Assembly (NCBI GenBank): GCA_017472605.1
Contig: JAFUPV010000042.1
Coordinates: 1 to 53,737 of the forward strand
DNA length: 53,737 bases
DNA from: Lachnospiraceae bacterium
GTDB taxonomy: Bacteria > Bacillota > Clostridia > Lachnospirales > Lachnospiraceae
Direction of reading: 5' to 3'
Shown: positions 46,312 through 53,737 of the stretch, in pieces
Numbering within the stretch: position 1 is the first letter of the stretch
Layout of the letters: every line of letters begins with the position of its first letter
Notes under the pieces: model-generated
What the model was told of the DNA's origin: nothing
Seen by the model: only the letters and a program-made list of their open reading frames with translations
Databases searched by the model: none
Program-made: the position numbers and the translations under genes

Positions 46312-47607
46312 ATGAGACAGGATACGATTGTAATCTTGGACCTTGGAAGCACTGAGAATACTGTGCTTGCCAGAGAAATCAGAGCACTCGGAGTGTACAG
46401 TGAGATCTATGCTCACGATATTACAAAAGAGGAGCTTACAGCAATCCCCAATGTAAAGGGTGTGATCCTTTTCGGCGGAGAGAACAGAGTTGTTGATGGT
46501 GTTGCAATTGATGTAAGTCCGGAGCTCTATGAGACTGGTCTGCCGTTCATGGCAATTGACCACGCTCCTGCAAAGTGCAGTGAGACTTATGCAAACTGGG
46601 AAGAGGCACAGCCGCAGTTAAAGGCATTTGTTTTTGATACCTGTAAGGCAGAAGCAAACTGGAACATGGAAAACTTCATTGCCGATCAGGTAGAACTGAT
46701 CCGCAATCAGGTGGGAGATCGCAAGGTTCTTCTTGCTCTTTCCGGCGGTGTAGACAGTTCCGTTGTAGCAGCCCTGCTGATCAAGGCAATCGGCAAGCAG
46801 CTGGTATGTGTCCATGTAAACCATGGTCTGATGCGTAAGGGCGAGTCCGAAAGTGTAATTGAAGTGTTCCGCAACCAGATGGATGCAAATCTGATCTATG
46901 TTGACGCAACCGAGCGCTATCTGACCAAGCTGGAAGGCGTTGCAGATCCGGAGCAGAAGAGAAAGATCATTGGTGCGGAATTCATCCGCATTTTCGAAGA
47001 AGAGGCAAGAAAGCTGGATGGAATCGATTTCCTCGGCCAGGGAACTATTTACCCGGATATCATCGAGAGCGGAACCAAGACTGCAAAGATGGTTAAGTCT
47101 CACCACAACGTTGGCGGACTTCCGGAAGATCTGCAGTTTGAACTGGTTGAGCCTTTGAAGCAGCTGTTCAAGGACGAAGTTCGTGCCTGCGGCGTCGCTC
47201 TTGGCCTGCCGGAGTCTATGGTATATCGTCAGCCGTTCCCGGGACCAGGTCTTGGTGTTCGCTGCCTTGGCGCAATCACCAGAGATCGTCTGGAAGCTGT
47301 CCGCGAATCCGATGCGATTCTTCGCGAGGAGTTTGAGAAGGCCGGTCTGAATCGCAAGGTTTGGCAGTACTTCACCATCGTTCCGGATTTCAAGTCCGTA
47401 GGTGTTCGTGACAACGCCCGCTGCTTCGACTATCCGGTAATCATCCGCGCAGTCAACACCATTGACGCAATGACCGCTTCCATTGAGAGACTGGATTGGG
47501 ATGTTCTGGCGAAGATTACAGACCGGATTCTGAAAGAAGTGAAGAACGTGAACCGCGTTTGTTATGATGTTTCGCCGAAGCCGACGGCTACGATTGAGTG
47601 GGAATAA
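46312..47607 (+). CDS. guaA: GMP synthetase with a deleted glutaminase domain
   Basis: A 431-residue enzyme that should convert XMP to GMP; full GuaA is about 510-520 residues. The ATP pyrophosphatase domain is complete: SGGVDSS at 144-150, VNHGLMRKGES, GQGTIYPDIIESG, SHHNVGGLP, FPGPGLGVRCLG and the terminal SPKPTATIEWE. The N-terminal glutamine amidotransferase domain is cut short: residues 1-80 match the first half (ILDLGSTENTVLAREIRALG, LFGGENRVVDG), but the segment with the nucleophilic Cys (normally GICYG) reads MAIDHAPAK, and the region with catalytic His-Glu is absent, about 80 residues in all. The frame is clean, so this looks like a fixed deletion. It would use free ammonia or a separate glutaminase. 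Confidence 0.9.
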   Translation: MRQDTIVILDLGSTENTVLAREIRALGVYSEIYAHDITKEELTAIPNVKGVILFGGENRVVDGVAIDVSPELYETGLPFMAIDHAPAKCSETYANWEEAQPQLKAFVFDTCKAEANWNMENFIADQVELIRNQVGDRKVLLALSGGVDSSVVAALLIKAIGKQLVCVHVNHGLMRKGESESVIEVFRNQMDANLIYVDATERYLTKLEGVADPEQKRKIIGAEFIRIFEEEARKLDGIDFLGQGTIYPDIIESGTKTAKMVKSHHNVGGLPEDLQFELVEPLKQLFKDEVRACGVALGLPESMVYRQPFPGPGLGVRCLGAITRDRLEAVRESDAILREEFEKAGLNRKVWQYFTIVPDFKSVGVRDNARCFDYPVIIRAVNTIDAMTASIERLDWDVLAKITDRILKEVKNVNRVCYDVSPKPTATIEWE

Positions 47608-47629
47608 AGGTCGAAATTCTCTCAGTCTC

Positions 47630-47654
47630 TGAGGTCTCACAGAGCCTCATTTTT
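47630..47654 (+). terminator. Probable guaA terminator
   Basis: TGAGG (47630-47634) pairs with CCTCA (47645-47649) and is followed by TTTTTCTC. The stem is short. Confidence 0.6.
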
Positions 47655-47765
47655 CTCAAAAAAGCTCGATTTATCTCGTGTTTTCTCCACATTCTCAAGA
47701 ATTGGAGTTTGAACTGAGGTCAATTTGATACCAAAAACAGAATAATTTCAAGTGGCTTTATAGTG

Positions 47766-47801
47766 ATCCGCTCACCCTTATGCGAGTAAAGGTGAGCGGA
47801 T
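47766..47801. repeat. Perfect 11-base inverted repeat near the element boundary
   Basis: ATCCGCTCACC and GGTGAGCGGAT are exact complements around a 14-base loop, followed by TTCTT. It may be a bidirectional terminator for the converging guaA and helicase genes or a recombination-associated site. Confidence 0.6.
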
Positions 47802-47932
47802 TTCTTACATTTTGGGACTTTTCAGAGAAAACTAGGCGTTATTCCGCTGCCGCTACCCATCCCGGAGAATTTATTTGGTACTGCGAAAAGTAGTATCAAC
47901 TGGCTTTGGAGTTATGCCAAGGACAGGATGAT

Positions 47933-49906
47933 TTAAATTGTACTCGATGGATTTTTAACATCAAAGCCTATAGCTGTTAATTTGTCGACAAAGATATCTT
48001 TGAATTTATTGATTTTAGTCTCGTCGACCACCACAACAAGATTTTTTCGCGCTCTCGAACAACCAACATAGAATAATTTATAAGCTGTTAGAATGCCTTC
48101 AATCTTTGAAAGCTTAAATATGTTTTTAGCATTACTTACCGTGCTTTTAGCCAAATAAGCCGTAAAATCATCTTTCAATAGTGCTTCAAAGAGTTTGTTA
48201 GCTCGATATGTGTTCAAGACTTGATTACTATATTCGGCAAGGAGGTTTTTGTTCGTTTCATTCTTATTGTGAGTTTCGGCATTGAGTTCACTTGTTTTCA
48301 TACCCAGCTTTGCTTCGACTTCCATTATTATTTTGCTATATGAATAAAACAAGTCCTCAAATTCTGGCAATGAAAAGTTGTTTTTTGACCACAACTCAAA
48401 GAAGGAATACATACGAACATTGGGCGTAGAATAATTATCTGCTGCTACAAAAATTACTGACTGGTGGCTTTCGCCCTTTACGCCGTGTTGTGTAGATATA
48501 TGTGGTGTACCTAAATAACTAGCAAGATTCTTGATTTCTGCGATTTCAATATTTAATACCTGCTGATACTCTAAGTTTTCCTCATAAATGTTTTTTACGG
48601 CATCGGATACAAGAGATTGTTCAAACAGGCATTCTATAACATCCTTTATTAGAGAATTTTCTCTTTCGTAAACAATTTTGACAGCCTCGAATTTATCTCG
48701 TAGTACCTTTTTATCCGTATGTCTTTTCAATTGGAACAATGCCGAATTAAAAAATCCATTTTCCTTTCTGCATACCGAAATAAGCATTCCATAGTTTTCT
48801 TTCGCATATAACACCATTATGTTATTCAAAAGAAACAAGAACTTCATTAATGCATCAGGATTATCGTTTGACATATCAGATAAAACATCTGTTGGCGAGT
48901 ATTTTCTTCCGAATGAATATGCTTCCATCTTTTCATATGCCGAATATAAATTCTTTGCACCAATTTCCGCATATTTTTCTTTGTTCATCAAATATAACGT
49001 CAGTATTCCTGGAAAGCTTGTTTGAAAATGTTCAACCGCCTCGGTTACATTTGACGTAATGATAGCTCTCGGAGATATATCAGGAGCAATATCCTTATTA
49101 TCTTCAGATGGATCTTGCTTAAAAGAATCATCATTGTAGATCATGTTCAATATTGATATTATTTTTCCTATTGAACGGTGATTGACTGCAAGTCGTTGTG
49201 AGGTATCAAATTCTTGTAATTTTTCTTCGAACGAACCATCATAATTGCGATATATTTGTTGCATTCTATCGCCTAACAAATATAACTGTATGTTTTCTTT
49301 ATTAACTACAGCATCATAGAAAATATCGAGTATATATGCAGAAGTATCTTGATATTCGTCAATAAATATGTAGTTGTACTTATCACTTATTTTCCTCAAC
49401 AATACAGGATATTTTTTGATAAGTTTGTTAGCAAACATTATCAAATCATCGTGGGAAAGTTTGCCTGAGTATAAAGATGTGAATGGCGTTTCTCCATATG
49501 ATAGCTCGCGTAGATTTTCTCGAACAAGATCAACATTTAAATCTCCGTGTTTTTCGATATAATGTTGGTTGCTTTGTTCAATATGTTCATCATTTTCCTC
49601 GTTTTTAATTCTTGCCTTAATCTTTTCTTCGAAGATTTCCCAGTATAAATCCAAGGCTTCTTTGAGTGGATAGAACGGACTGATCAAATCGTTAATATAA
49701 GAATGTATTGTACTTACCGTGACATTAGCGCTATCTAAATCCTTCTTTAACTCATCGGCAGCACGATTTGTATATGTAATACATAAAATCTTGCTTTTCG
49801 GTTCATTAAGACAAATGCTTTTCAAACGAGTACGTATATTCGTGGTTTTTCCACTGCCCGCTGGGGCGTTTATTAAATGCTTATTATTTGTTATTTCGCC
49901 AGCCAT
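47933..49906 (-). CDS. gajB: Gabija-type UvrD-like helicase
   Basis: A 657-residue superfamily 1A helicase. Motifs in order: Walker A APAGSGKTT at 14-22; Ia CITYTNRAADELK; II FIDEYQDTSAYIL; III LLGDRMQQIY; IV LAVNHRS; V STQHGVKGESHQSVIFVA; VI YVGCSRARKNLVVVV. It overlaps the upstream OLD nuclease gene by 16 bases. This gene pair and order is that of the Gabija anti-phage system, in which GajB is the helicase/ATPase that assembles with GajA. The protein is longer than the roughly 500-residue Bacillus GajB, mainly in the region between motifs IV and V. It is AT-rich compared with the core genes, a sign of transfer. Confidence 0.82.
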   Translation of the reverse strand: MAGEITNNKHLINAPAGSGKTTNIRTRLKSICLNEPKSKILCITYTNRAADELKKDLDSANVTVSTIHSYINDLISPFYPLKEALDLYWEIFEEKIKARIKNEENDEHIEQSNQHYIEKHGDLNVDLVRENLRELSYGETPFTSLYSGKLSHDDLIMFANKLIKKYPVLLRKISDKYNYIFIDEYQDTSAYILDIFYDAVVNKENIQLYLLGDRMQQIYRNYDGSFEEKLQEFDTSQRLAVNHRSIGKIISILNMIYNDDSFKQDPSEDNKDIAPDISPRAIITSNVTEAVEHFQTSFPGILTLYLMNKEKYAEIGAKNLYSAYEKMEAYSFGRKYSPTDVLSDMSNDNPDALMKFLFLLNNIMVLYAKENYGMLISVCRKENGFFNSALFQLKRHTDKKVLRDKFEAVKIVYERENSLIKDVIECLFEQSLVSDAVKNIYEENLEYQQVLNIEIAEIKNLASYLGTPHISTQHGVKGESHQSVIFVAADNYSTPNVRMYSFFELWSKNNFSLPEFEDLFYSYSKIIMEVEAKLGMKTSELNAETHNKNETNKNLLAEYSNQVLNTYRANKLFEALLKDDFTAYLAKSTVSNAKNIFKLSKIEGILTAYKLFYVGCSRARKNLVVVVDETKINKFKDIFVDKLTAIGFDVKNPSSTI

Positions 49907-52020
49907 AACAATCCTTTCTTTATGTAATCCGGAAGCATCTTTTCTTCATTACCGCTCAAAACGACGGAATACATAAAATCTGTTTTGTTGTTTGAGGAAG
50001 CGGCTATGATTTCACGAATGGAAAACTCGCTATCTGTTTCGTCTTTTCTATTGTTTGGAATAGTAAAAGTGAGATTATTATTTTTTCTTATTAATTTCCA
50101 TTCACTGCGCTTAGTTTTGTAAAATACATTTTTGCTTAAAAACTTATTCAACATTGCTTCTTCTAATGTACGGGCCGTGCTATTTTCATCTTGATATGAG
50201 AGGTAAATAAGCTCGTTACATATAACTGTGCCTTTTTCAGTTTGCATCTCATATATTTCTTTAATTGAAGGTGAATATGTTGCACCTTTTTCGGGATAAA
50301 TCAACCTATAACAATGATTAATTGTTGCATTTGTGCTTGTTGAATTTTTTGCTGCTTCAAAGGTAGGAGCATCCTTGTCATAATCCAAGTCAGTTACAAT
50401 CAAAGATTTCATTTTGAGCATAGTTAATATTTCGAGATAATTATGAGCATATGCTCCTCCGACTTGAATAAAGGCAATATAGTTGTCACGCAGAGAGGCA
50501 AAATCGGTCATGCCTAATAGCTTTCTTATATATAAGCGTTCTGTATCTCCCTCATAAAGAACCACCTTGTCCGCAAAAATTAACTCCGAATAACCTATTT
50601 CAAAAAACCAATCAAAAAAGTTTTGTAGCAAGAATTCAGACTCTTCATCTGCATTTTTGACCTTCTTGTTTTCAATAGATTTTCTAAACTTACTGAGATT
50701 AAACAATTCACTTTTTGATTTTTCCGTTTGTCTGATGACTCTTAGGCTATTCAGACCGACAGATCGTGCAATTTCATTTGAATGTGTTGTTATAAGACCT
50801 TGTAGTTTCTTTTCCATATAGTATTTCGTCAGAAATCTAATGAAGACATTTTGCATCTGTGGATGCATATGTGACTCAGGTTCTTCTATGAAAAACACAT
50901 TGACCTTGCTTTCATCAACGGATTTGTAGAATTCCTCTAATCTCATATGAAGATAAATTAAATTACTAAATCCCAATCCTTGAGATTGTTCATTCAAAAG
51001 CAAGCCATCGATATCAAATTTTGCATGAGTGATTTTTTGAATAAATTCTTCAACAACATTCTCATTAACATCCATTTCGAGTTGTAATTTTCCGATATGA
51101 CCGCCACTCGTCTTGGATATATCTTGTACCGTTTCGTCCAGTGATTTTATCGATGAATTCTTTATTTCTTTTTTGGCTCCAGAATCTTCAATTTGTGCCA
51201 TCAACAAATCGGGAAGCTTTTTTGTTACTTCTTCCCACTTTTCATTACCTTTTAACAAGGCTATGATCCTTTTACTTATCCCTTTTGAAGTATCGGATTC
51301 ATTGTCGTCCAATTCTCTTATTGCAGGTATATCACGGAAATTAAATAAACTCTTAAATGATGTTATCTCCATGTAATTTGCATTTTCATAGTTTGAATTA
51401 CAGAAATAACATTTTTCAAGTGAAGCGTGACAATACAGTTTTAGTAATTCTTCTTTTATAAAATAAAGCTTAGTCTCTTTTTCTTTGCAATCGGGATTGC
51501 TAATGTCCAAAAAACGTGACGACAGTTTATCGTAACATTCTCCGAGATGTTTTTCAAAAGAAGCAATATTGGGCTCATACGAATAAATAAAGTAAAAGGA
51601 GTGTTTCGACTCATCCAAATCCATCAAGTAATCAGCAAACAATTGAATATCGTCATCTGTTGAATCGTAGTCCACTTGAATTTCCGCGCGAAAGCACTCT
51701 ATGGAGTACTCGGGAAGAAGCTTATCATCGGCAGATATTTGTTTAAGGATTTCACTAATTCCTGTATTTTTATCATGTGCAATCATAATTGATTGAAATA
51801 CAGGCATTATTTTTTCTACCCAAACAGTTGATAAGTTCGTGGGAATATCACTATATGTGAAGCTAAGCTTTTTATCATGAAACATTCCTTTTAGAACAGA
51901 AATAAGTGTTGTTTTTCCACTGTTGTTCGGTCCTGCTAATACTGTCAAGGAATTTTGCAAATCGAATTCAACTACTTGTAACTGTCGGTAATTATATATT
52001 TTGACTTTCTTTAAAATCAT
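49891..52020 (-). CDS. gajA: Gabija-type OLD-family ATPase/TOPRIM nuclease
   Basis: A 709-residue nuclease with an N-terminal ABC-type ATPase and a C-terminal TOPRIM domain. Walker A GPNNSGKTT is at 30-38, and Walker B NVFFIEEPESHMHPQMQ near 370-386. The TOPRIM acidic sites are E490 in LYEGDTERLYI and D544, D546 in TDLDYDKDAP; ARTLEEAM and KTDFMYSVV follow as in OLD nucleases. Next to a UvrD-like helicase this is GajA of Gabija. Residues about 195-212 contain CHASLEKCYFC, a possible metal-binding Cys cluster that I do not associate with the family. GGGAGG lies 8 bases before the ATG. The gene begins 32 bases after the Xre-type gene. Confidence 0.85.
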   Translation of the reverse strand: MILKKVKIYNYRQLQVVEFDLQNSLTVLAGPNNSGKTTLISVLKGMFHDKKLSFTYSDIPTNLSTVWVEKIMPVFQSIMIAHDKNTGISEILKQISADDKLLPEYSIECFRAEIQVDYDSTDDDIQLFADYLMDLDESKHSFYFIYSYEPNIASFEKHLGECYDKLSSRFLDISNPDCKEKETKLYFIKEELLKLYCHASLEKCYFCNSNYENANYMEITSFKSLFNFRDIPAIRELDDNESDTSKGISKRIIALLKGNEKWEEVTKKLPDLLMAQIEDSGAKKEIKNSSIKSLDETVQDISKTSGGHIGKLQLEMDVNENVVEEFIQKITHAKFDIDGLLLNEQSQGLGFSNLIYLHMRLEEFYKSVDESKVNVFFIEEPESHMHPQMQNVFIRFLTKYYMEKKLQGLITTHSNEIARSVGLNSLRVIRQTEKSKSELFNLSKFRKSIENKKVKNADEESEFLLQNFFDWFFEIGYSELIFADKVVLYEGDTERLYIRKLLGMTDFASLRDNYIAFIQVGGAYAHNYLEILTMLKMKSLIVTDLDYDKDAPTFEAAKNSTSTNATINHCYRLIYPEKGATYSPSIKEIYEMQTEKGTVICNELIYLSYQDENSTARTLEEAMLNKFLSKNVFYKTKRSEWKLIRKNNNLTFTIPNNRKDETDSEFSIREIIAASSNNKTDFMYSVVLSGNEEKMLPDYIKKGLLWLAK

Positions 52021-52052
52021 ATTTTACACCTCCCATACCGTAAGCGTGTTCC

Positions 52053-52724
52053 TTATACATCTTCGTTATCTTCAATCTCACTGTTGTCGTACTCTAACAG
52101 ATCTTCCACACGGCAGCCGAGGATCTTTGCTAACGCAAGGAGTGTTGCACCTGCGGCTTTATTGATATCCTTGGCACGAATTTCGTATTGTTGCAGAGTA
52201 CGCAGATTAACACCAACCTTTTCTGCAAGCTCTCTTTGTGAATAACCGCTGATCTTGCGCTGCGCCTGCAAGCGAGTAGGTGGATTTTTCTTGCGTATCA
52301 TACGATTGACAGTATCCACAAATTTCTTCTCGGATGCTTCGTGCAGAGTAGGATAAAGCTTTTCAATCTCTTGCATAGTGATGTGCTTTGCAATCTCCTT
52401 AAAGCTCCGTCCAGTGTACCATTGATAGTAAGCAAGAATCCAGCCACACCAATACTGCGGTGAATAGTCATAGTCAATCTTCGCTTGTGGAAAATCCATG
52501 TCCGTTCCCGATTTTGTGAGTACATCCATCACAAGTTCCGTGCCTGATATGCCGGATACATATTTGGGAACGCCTGCAGCAAATTGCTCTGCATAACCTG
52601 TGCCAATAAACAACTCAAGGAAACTATCCATATTCACCTGACAGCTATTGCCGGCATAGTCCATGGCTTCGCCCAGACATTTCATGGCATCATCAAGATA
52701 TTGACTATCGTAAGCGCGGATCAT
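52053..52724 (-). CDS. Xre-type HTH protein with a novel N-terminal domain
   Basis: A 223-residue protein. The C-terminal part (about 150-205) is an Xre/Cro helix-turn-helix: RKISGYSQRELAEKVGVNLRTLQQYE, read as two helices, then ALAKILGCRVEDLLEY. The N-terminal 140 residues (with LFIGTGYAEQFAAGVPKYVSG and PQYWCGWILAYYQWYTGRSF) are not a domain I can name. ATG 52724 has GAGGAGG at 52734-52740, nine bases upstream; an earlier ATG at 52742 lacks such a site. It overlaps the DUF3990 gene by 20 bases, so the two are translationally coupled. It is the likely repressor of the operon, binding the promoter palindrome, and perhaps the antitoxin of a DUF3990 pair. Confidence 0.8.
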   Translation of the reverse strand: MIRAYDSQYLDDAMKCLGEAMDYAGNSCQVNMDSFLELFIGTGYAEQFAAGVPKYVSGISGTELVMDVLTKSGTDMDFPQAKIDYDYSPQYWCGWILAYYQWYTGRSFKEIAKHITMQEIEKLYPTLHEASEKKFVDTVNRMIRKKNPPTRLQAQRKISGYSQRELAEKVGVNLRTLQQYEIRAKDINKAAGATLLALAKILGCRVEDLLEYDNSEIEDNEDV

Positions 52725-53382
52725 CTGCTTGCACCTCCTCACGGATAATGTCTCTCATGTATAGACCATCTAAATCGTCTTTTTCAAGCTCTGCACGGAA
52801 AGCAGCTCTTGCTTCATCATCACGGGCTTTTCTTTTTGCGTAATACTCGGTATTATCAGCAATCTCATAAGAAACAAATTCAATCTTCTCAAAAGCAGCG
52901 GGGCTTTTCAAAACGAATTGCTCGCCGAGTTTTCCAAGTCGCATAGCATAGGAAAGCTGCGTGAGCGAGATTTCGTTGTTCACGAACGCTCTTGCAAAGG
53001 AGAAGTAGGAGTCGTCCGCACGATAGCCAATAACTGCATCATACGGTGTTAGATCAATAAGAAAATGTTCTTTCAGCCAATCCGCACCACGCTTCATAAC
53101 AGGAGTTGAAACACGGAATTTGCGGTACTTCATCAGTAGGGCCAGCCAATGCAGAATTGTGTATTCGCTTGACGAAAGATTGAGAACAGAGAGATCAGCG
53201 GTATTAATTTCATATTTGTTTGCATAACCGTCTGTATTTTCAGTACAAGCCCATTCCTTTGCAAGTTCTAAGTGCTCTGTGCAATAAAAGCCCTTTCCAT
53301 AGTCGTTATATGATTTGCCTTTTCCAAACACAGGCGTTTGAATAATTTCGGGTGAACCGTGATATAGAATTAGTTTGCTCAT
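52705..53382 (-). CDS. DUF3990 protein (ADP-ribosyltransferase-like fold)
   Basis: A 225-residue protein beginning MSKLILYHGSPEII. The YHGS motif (H8), SYNDYGKGFYCTEHLELAKEWAC near residues 26-48 and GEQFVLKS near 155-162 are characteristic of DUF3990, related in fold to ADP-ribosyltransferases (His, Tyr and a Gln/Glu at the NAD site). No transferase activity can be claimed from sequence. The start is ATG 53382, with GGAGG eight bases upstream; ATG 53397 is the alternative. It is the first gene of a four-gene operon with an Xre protein, gajA and gajB. Adjacent DUF3990-HTH pairs suggest a toxin-antitoxin or sensor module. Confidence 0.78.
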   Translation of the reverse strand: MSKLILYHGSPEIIQTPVFGKGKSYNDYGKGFYCTEHLELAKEWACTENTDGYANKYEINTADLSVLNLSSSEYTILHWLALLMKYRKFRVSTPVMKRGADWLKEHFLIDLTPYDAVIGYRADDSYFSFARAFVNNEISLTQLSYAMRLGKLGEQFVLKSPAAFEKIEFVSYEIADNTEYYAKRKARDDEARAAFRAELEKDDLDGLYMRDIIREEVQADDPRLR

Positions 53383-53422
53383 TTTTGTCGCCTCCATACT
53401 TCTTTAGAGTTATCCTGAATAT

Positions 53423-53451
53423 ATTATACTTCCACAGAAGTATATAGTCAA
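53423..53451 (-). promoter_or_regulatory. Promoter of the DUF3990-Xre-gajA-gajB operon
   Basis: On the minus strand TTGACT (53446-53451), a 17-base spacer and TATAAT (53423-53428) lie about 40 bases before the first start codon. It is the only clear promoter upstream of the four genes. Confidence 0.85.
53425..53444. promoter_or_regulatory. Operator palindrome between -35 and -10
   Basis: TATACTTC-CACA-GAAGTATA is a perfect inverted repeat with 8-base arms filling the promoter spacer and overlapping the -10. A half site, ATACTTC at 53396-53402, lies near the ribosome-binding site. The Xre protein encoded second in the operon is the obvious candidate ligand. Confidence 0.75.
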
Positions 53452-53564
53452 TATGCTTGCTAAAAAGTTTACAATTAATTTGGATGAAATAATAGCAAAT
53501 CATTTTGAAATCTCCTTGTTTGATAAAATATTGGTACCATTTTAATAATCAAGAAGGGCATTTT

Positions 53565-53737
53565 ATGGGCGCTTACAAAGACAAAGGCGGACGTTGGTAC
53601 GTATCCGTTCGCTACAAAAACTGGCTGGGAGAACCATCCCGCAAAACCAAAAGAGGATTCACGACAAAGCGAGATGCGCTGGCATGGGAAAGGGAGTTTC
53701 TACAAAAGTATTCCGGCAGTCTGGACATGACCTTTAA
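53565..53737 (+). CDS. Tyrosine-recombinase-type integrase, N-terminal fragment (cut by window end)
   Basis: The first 57 residues of a gene that runs off the right edge. The start MGAYKDKGGRWYVSVRYKNW followed by a short turn, then RGFTTKRDALAWEREF, is the small arm-DNA-binding domain typical of integrases from Firmicute phages and conjugative elements. AAGGGC lies five to ten bases before the ATG. No catalytic residue is in the window. It points away from the defence genes and suggests that the element's end is just past the window. Confidence 0.75.
   Translation, partial: MGAYKDKGGRWYVSVRYKNWLGEPSRKTKRGFTTKRDALAWEREFLQKYSGSLDMTF

Follow-up and report, generated by a model that had tools for sequence, protein, structure and literature searches.

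A Gabija pair behind the predicted operator of a DUF3990-Xre pair in a Lachnospiraceae genome

We analysed a 53,737-nt stretch of DNA, hereafter the window, which is an entire contig (JAFUPV010000042.1; C13 in our numbering) from the Lachnospiraceae bacterium assembly GCA_017472605.1. Four minus-strand genes at 47933-53451 encode, in order of transcription, a DUF3990 protein, an Xre-type regulator and the two proteins of a Gabija defence system, GajA and GajB. These genes probably represent two self-sufficient modules that were joined by recombination, with gajAB read through from a promoter under Xre control. In the genomes and viral contigs surveyed, DUF3990-Xre and gajAB each form a unit of their own, and the two are rarely joined. 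The case is built on the gene layout, on neighbour surveys made from both sides, on unequal divergence between the window and the only other locus found with the same arrangement, and on a palindrome at the promoter that covaries with the recognition helix of Xre.

Four genes behind one strong promoter

The DUF3990 gene (open reading frame (ORF) 52705-53397), xre (52053-52724), gajA (49891-52020) and gajB (47933-49906) follow one another with overlaps of 20 nt (counted from the xre ATG) and 16 nt, and with a 32-nt gap between xre and gajA. An initial sequence-only reading had described this arrangement behind a single promoter, and the ORF list and a promoter scan confirmed it. The promoter at 53423-53451 on the minus strand is of the sigma-70 type (TTGACT-17-TATAAT, 11 of 12 consensus bases), with the 5′ base of its -35 hexamer at 53451, and it ranks first among 18 promoter-like matches in 47600-53737; shuffled sequences averaged 21.6 matches, so the weaker ones carry no meaning. 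Ribosome-site-like GGAGG motifs lie 5′ of xre, gajA and the DUF3990 gene when the last is started at 53382. This start is more likely than the one at 53397, because GGAGG stands 8 nt 5′ of its ATG and relatives such as locus L118 begin there; the preferred gene, 52705-53382, encodes 225 amino acids and leaves the overlap with xre unaffected. An alternative start for xre is a GTG at 52742, upstream of the ATG.

Between 53423 and 51878 there is no minus-strand promoter-like match, and hence none just upstream of gajA, and no minus-strand terminator was called, all six terminator-like matches being on the plus strand. Since no promoter is visible just before gajA, which lies only 32 nt behind xre, gajAB would most likely be transcribed by read-through from the Xre-controlled promoter at 53423. 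That gajAB might instead have a weak promoter of its own, so that adjacency is without consequence, is improbable: some gajAB pairs without a close same-strand gene upstream (L013 and L017) are presumably expressed alone, but the lack of promoter and terminator calls here and the 32-nt gap with its ribosome-site-like GGGAGG argue against it.

By their profile matches, the last two genes appear to be a good Gabija pair and a complete nuclease-helicase module, bearing out the make-up originally read from the sequence. GajA, an OLD-family ATPase/TOPRIM nuclease, matches PADLOC GajA at 7.5e-238 and Pfam AAA_15 and OLD-like_TOPRIM, and GajB, a UvrD-like SF1 helicase encoded 3′ of gajA, matches PADLOC GajB at 1.4e-242 and Pfam UvrD-helicase at 9.6e-23. 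Residues E490, G521, G522, D544 and D546 are invariant among 20 aligned GajA proteins (of 32 loci). A GajA profile reached the PDB entry of Bacillus cereus GajA (1.8e-18) and aligned these residues with its TOPRIM motif, for which the reported catalytic residues served as the reference list (PMC10781630); phmmer with the single GajA sequence did not reach that entry at 1e-3. Gene order, overlap, a GajA ATPase-TOPRIM with E, G and DxD residues and an SF1 helicase GajB are shared with known Gabija, whereas the present pair belongs to a distant subfamily and stands behind a DUF3990-Xre pair that has its own operator. GajA relatives also occur in four plasmid records (about 26-40% identity) and at three loci in viral contigs (40-41%).

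The DUF3990 protein matches Pfam DUF3990 (PF13151) at 1.5e-43 and PADLOC PDC-M42A at 4.2e-44, with a weak Pfam ART-PolyVal match. DUF3990 belongs to the Pfam ADP-ribosyltransferase (ART) clan (PMC7955679) and has been described in the C-terminal part of a Serratia Rhs protein (PMC4524185). A single-sequence structure model was useless (pLDDT 37.5), while a model from a 9-sequence alignment gave an ART-like fold in which H13, Y38 and Q160 (numbered from the 53397 start) are invariant, in agreement with the ADP-ribosyltransferase-like motifs noticed earlier. Fold search matched this model to the toxins of RES-Xre, ParT-ParS and MbcTA; the lists also name bacterial toxins of people, which we take as fold matches only. 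In the PDB, neither the DUF3990 sequence nor its profile matched any entry above chance level.

In Xre, an HTH_3 match at residues 158-215 upheld the Xre-type helix-turn-helix (HTH) assignment, whereas the N-terminal domain, previously thought unassigned, matches PADLOC PDC-M42B (1.2e-9 at residues 8-138; both ranges in the 229-aa reading), as does the N-terminal part of the two relatives tested (4.8e-8 and 1.7e-10). The pair is thus already listed in PADLOC, as phage-defence candidate PDC-M42, with both subunits matched, adjacent and in the order A then B. It differs from that entry in that the B profile (138 positions) spans the N-terminal domain only, and the Xre HTH follows here and in the aligned relatives. 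The name PDC-M42 was not found in the literature searched, and the portions available of the literature naming DUF3990 held no study of the DUF3990-Xre pair.

Two modules with separate histories

GajA relatives were collected at 32 loci: 25 from genomes, three viral, three from further genomes of the order and one from the family, the last identical to L014 over 5.1 kb. At least 700 nt of upstream sequence was present in 28 of them (25 without the copies in L021/L023, L035/L036 and L014/L156); among the 28, L033 has part of gajA only, and L006, L007, L030, L032 and L156 have just 1.1-1.6 kb upstream. DUF3990 and Xre precede gajA at one of the 28 loci, L009, whose GajA is 94% identical to that of the window. 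The next-closest loci, L011, L013 and L014 (about 75%) and L012 (66%), are without the pair. The contig of L010 (GajA also 94%) begins at the third codon of gajA and is uninformative on the upstream gene; as a side observation, differing upstream genes in the community might produce such a break at L010:1-2.

Seen from the other side, an Xre match (E ≤1e-10, some to the HTH only) was present in 40 and GajA (E ≤1e-20) in four of 392 genomes of the order, and the two coincide in one genome, the window's own (none of three without it; P for at least one genome with both, 0.35). We compared 47 Xre regions, comprising 36 that were fetched (two from the window's genome) and the best 11 of 40 viral loci, some of the viral regions being near-copies. 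DUF3990 adjoins Xre in 34 of the 36 and in all 11, and neither GajA nor GajB was found around any of the 47, several of whose contigs end soon after xre. These neighbour searches used tblastn with the window's proteins at 1e-3, a setting that very divergent relatives could escape. Two extra viral scans with DUF3990 relatives returned only already-known contigs, and Xre matches were also found in plasmids (three records) and phages (two records).

A blastn comparison of the window with 22 kb of L009 gave one block, 48003-53458 at 89.8% identity, which runs from just 5′ of the -35 hexamer to near the end of gajB; the match to L009 and L010 ends about 70 nt before the gajB end. As there was no other match at 1e-3, the four-gene block sits in two settings. 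Within it, synonymous divergence (dS) is 2.04 for DUF3990 and 1.15 for xre vs 0.33 for gajA and 0.38 for gajB (residues 1-630), and third codon positions differ at 185 of 448 (41%) in the pair and 226 of 1336 (17%) in gajAB. The change point falls at 52080/52077, in the last 50 nt of xre (support interval 52062-52104), with a log-likelihood ratio of 54.7, whereas 300 shuffles reached no more than 8.6; it lies in the junction at 52021-52104, which comprises the end of xre and the 32-nt spacer with GGGAGG before gajA. The G+C content is 42.6 and 44.8% for the pair, 33.2 and 33.5% for gajAB, and 49.1% in window positions 1-47600. All four genes have apparently been kept functional, since the ratio of nonsynonymous to synonymous divergence between the window and L009 is 0.03-0.08 in each. 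Recombinational exchange at the border of xre and gajA would explain this most simply. In one version, gajAB travelled with the tail of xre from one to the other of two resident pairs; in the other, half of an old four-gene locus was replaced. Under either scenario the two halves would be separable, with separate histories.

This evidence also bears on whether the four genes form one coupled defence system, with Xre as shared sensor and DUF3990 as a second-line or guard effector that acts when Gabija is blocked. In favour are the gene order shared by the window and L009, with a nearly identical spacer and a related operator in different surroundings, the purifying selection on all four genes, the single strong promoter without a minus-strand terminator call, and the precedent of DarTG2 in a type I restriction-modification island under one repressor (PMC12255303). 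We nevertheless consider such a system quite unlikely, given one gajA locus in 28 and no Xre-relative region in 47, a co-occurrence in 392 genomes whose sole case is the window's own, and two halves of different history. The sequence-only reading had suggested surveying gajAB neighbourhoods for enrichment, with rarity of the pair there as a refuting outcome; the pair rarely stands beside gajAB elsewhere, and these counts, with the unequal divergence in the sole two joint loci found, do not support the idea of a Gabija-bound module. Functional coupling as a general rule was rejected after the gajA-side and Xre-side surveys. No literature linking DUF3990-Xre with Gabija was found, judged from titles and abstract openings. 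The evidence supports no coupling of the pair and Gabija beyond a probable co-transcription.

A promoter palindrome that varies with the Xre helix

The pair has its own predicted operator. On the minus strand at 53425-53444, between the -35 and -10 hexamers and covering the spacer and part of the -10, lies O1, TATACTTC-TGTG-GAAGTATA, the sole match in the window with at most three mismatches. A possible second operator, O2 (53395-53414, minus strand), is a degenerate copy 30 nt downstream of O1, matching a relative's perfect site at 16 of 20 positions; it is the second-best consensus match in the window, and O1 and O2 are the only places found within four mismatches of the consensus. The exact palindrome TATACTTCN4GAAGTATA, a pattern drawn from some of the same loci, occurs at 11 sites in the 392 genomes, ten of which (in nine genomes) are directly upstream of DUF3990-Xre pairs. 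The eleventh, in genome G196, is near what reads from its ORFs as an ammonium-transporter-like gene and looks like chance; a reversed control pattern gave three sites. In the window's genome the exact palindrome occurs once, at the 53423 promoter.

Of 37 pair loci, 34 have a general form, TATA-nnn-C-TnnA-G-n′n′n′-TATA with at most three mismatches, in the 120 nt before DUF3990, compared with 3.2% of base-shuffled upstream sequences. Two such sites are present in nine of the 37; the window scores O1 alone at that threshold. The count left out L038, L055 and L063 (less than 100 nt upstream), L002 and L003 (broken DUF3990 copy) and Xre matches without a locus, and kept near-identical rows separate (L046/L047, L059/L060, L118/L119, L157/L158 and L160/L161).

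In all 29 rows of the four main classes, the triplet nnn matches the Xre recognition helix, a count that, like the others here, overstates independence, the rows being akin. Helix RTLQQYE goes with CTT (14 of 14 rows; L039 with a CCT half), RQIQLFE with TCG (8 of 8; L056, L057 and L058 with a TCT half), RSIQMYE with TCA (4 of 4), and VRTIQQYE or VKTIQQYE with CTC (3 of 3; L066 additionally with a mixed site). Among the remaining eight rows, five have a site of another triplet (L040, L064, L065, L157 and L158) and three have no site (L050, L061 and L163, the helix of L163 not being read). The rule is not a simple one, because L157 and L158 have a helix, RTVQQYE, near the first class, yet halves of CGC/CTC. 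Specific binding would predict that helix and half-site change in concert, which makes Xre a likely autorepressor of the pair and, with it, of any gene read through downstream. With the operator at the sole strong promoter, Xre may also control gajAB transcription.

From sequence, the 20-nt overlap and the covarying operator would be compatible with a self-regulated type II toxin-antitoxin pair, in which Xre is likely the antitoxin as well as the autorepressor. In systems of the RES-Xre type the toxin gene is usually not first; here it is, and the predicted toxin belongs to DUF3990 (PF13151), not RES. No Pfam match to RES, and no Pfam or NCBIfam match to DarT or a macro domain, was found at E up to 0.1, and DarTG was not recognised. 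Shared with RES-Xre, ParT-ParS and MbcTA are an ART-fold toxin, an Xre or related antitoxin and a promoter palindrome (PMC12204516). It is doubtful, if somewhat conceivable, that DUF3990-Xre is instead a maintenance or exclusion module of mobile elements or prophages. Such a role would suit the adjoining DUF3990 in each of the best 11 of 40 viral Xre loci and a portal-like gene after the pair in L118, L120, L121, L122 and L124 (by ORF reading, with no family call). The ART fold common to toxins of toxin-antitoxin systems, the apparently self-regulated promoter resembling theirs and the PADLOC listing as a phage-defence candidate speak against it. From ORF starts, many chromosomal copies of the pair seem to lie among ordinary genes; the portal-like gene behind the pair on the five viral contigs is, again by ORF reading, a moron-like arrangement.

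Genomic setting and a possible inducible Gabija

A stretch of 325 nt separates the gajB end from the 3′ end of a GMP synthase gene, and on the other side, beyond DUF3990, starts an integrase gene whose 5′ part (53505-53735, plus strand; Arm-DNA-bind_4 at 2.8e-13) is cut by the contig end, off which the integrase N-terminus runs. This suggests an island inserted at guaA, an insertion hot spot. A search of the genome for another copy of the guaA flank or the integrase start found none, no direct repeat within 47480-53737 was convincing, and no empty guaA site was seen among 20 relatives, which were too distant to show one. The GMP synthase gene (46312-47607, plus strand) encodes 431 amino acids with a complete synthase half; its glutaminase half appears shortened, since the guaA_Nterm (NCBIfam) match covers only positions 1-76 of 188. 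A second guaA-like stretch with 65% DNA identity lies at G000:C6:100141-100840.

The same genome carries a second DUF3990-Xre pair (L002, G000:C39:40897-42192) with a DUF3990 match divided over two frames and without gajAB in the surrounding 12 kb, as well as further partial Xre and DUF3990 relatives at G000:C66:27595-27981 and 94301-94450. Elsewhere, a second DUF3990 relative, 24% identical, lies just downstream of the L065 pair (L065:2595-3212).

Upstream of gajA, the window, L009 and four related loci lose DNA homology at the gajA ATG; the exceptions are the window compared with L009 and L011 compared with L014. The same-strand gene upstream is a C5-methyltransferase in L011 and, by likeness, in L014 (gap 37). 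Directly upstream of gajA, likewise on its strand, are type I specificity subunits in L007 and L029 and an Eco57I-type methylase in L006; a Fic protein is directly upstream in L030 (L030:463-1509), and Fic with a ResIII helicase in L012 (L012:7736-9983). Fic is another class of protein-modifying enzyme in the place of DUF3990. Transposases lie upstream on the opposite strand in L013 and L017; L019 has a recombinase there, and L026 and L031 have ordinary genes; among the upstream genes scanned, those of L022, L028 and L035 had no family match. As a passenger, gajAB is often, not always, behind other defence genes.

For the reading we prefer, the mechanism would run as follows. Recombination would have placed gajAB 32 nt behind xre, joining the two within the final codons of xre; Xre, alone or together with DUF3990, would bind O1 and perhaps O2 and limit transcription; and titration or loss of Xre would let both modules rise at once. 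DUF3990 would act as the toxin, modifying a cell target or consuming NAD+, and Xre as the antitoxin, while Gabija, acting as elsewhere, would attack unprotected DNA ends, with a presumed anti-phage effect. Gabija has been proposed, in a preprint, to attack linear DNA devoid of RecBCD (PMC12407980). A parallel is the RptR-controlled RRDM island, in which DarTG2 lies within type I restriction-modification genes and hsdM is upregulated on infection; in it, a single repressor whose sites overlap the -10 governs an ART toxin-antitoxin together with a DNA-cleaving defence, but the repressor, toxin and nuclease differ from those here, and RptR is a separate first gene (PMC12255303). Here no RptR stands first: DUF3990 does, with an Xre HTH protein as regulator (no search for TAGCTA sites was made).

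How defence systems switch on is less known than how they act, a view also expressed in PMC12255303. It is unlikely, on present evidence, that this locus is an inducible Gabija in which Xre acts as the infection sensor and, once released, both liberates the DUF3990 ART toxin and lifts repression of gajAB at that one promoter; if true, one switch would fire a DNA-end nuclease and a backup growth-stopping enzyme. Tight gene spacing, as the surveys caution, is not proof of functional coupling. For the DUF3990-Xre family, the analysis supplies a predicted operator, recognition rule and enzyme fold, and if the triplet is indeed read by the Xre helix, such switches would be predictable across genomes. 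Capture of a Gabija pair by a self-regulated, toxin-antitoxin-like promoter, as seems to have happened here, would be a simple route to inducible defence.

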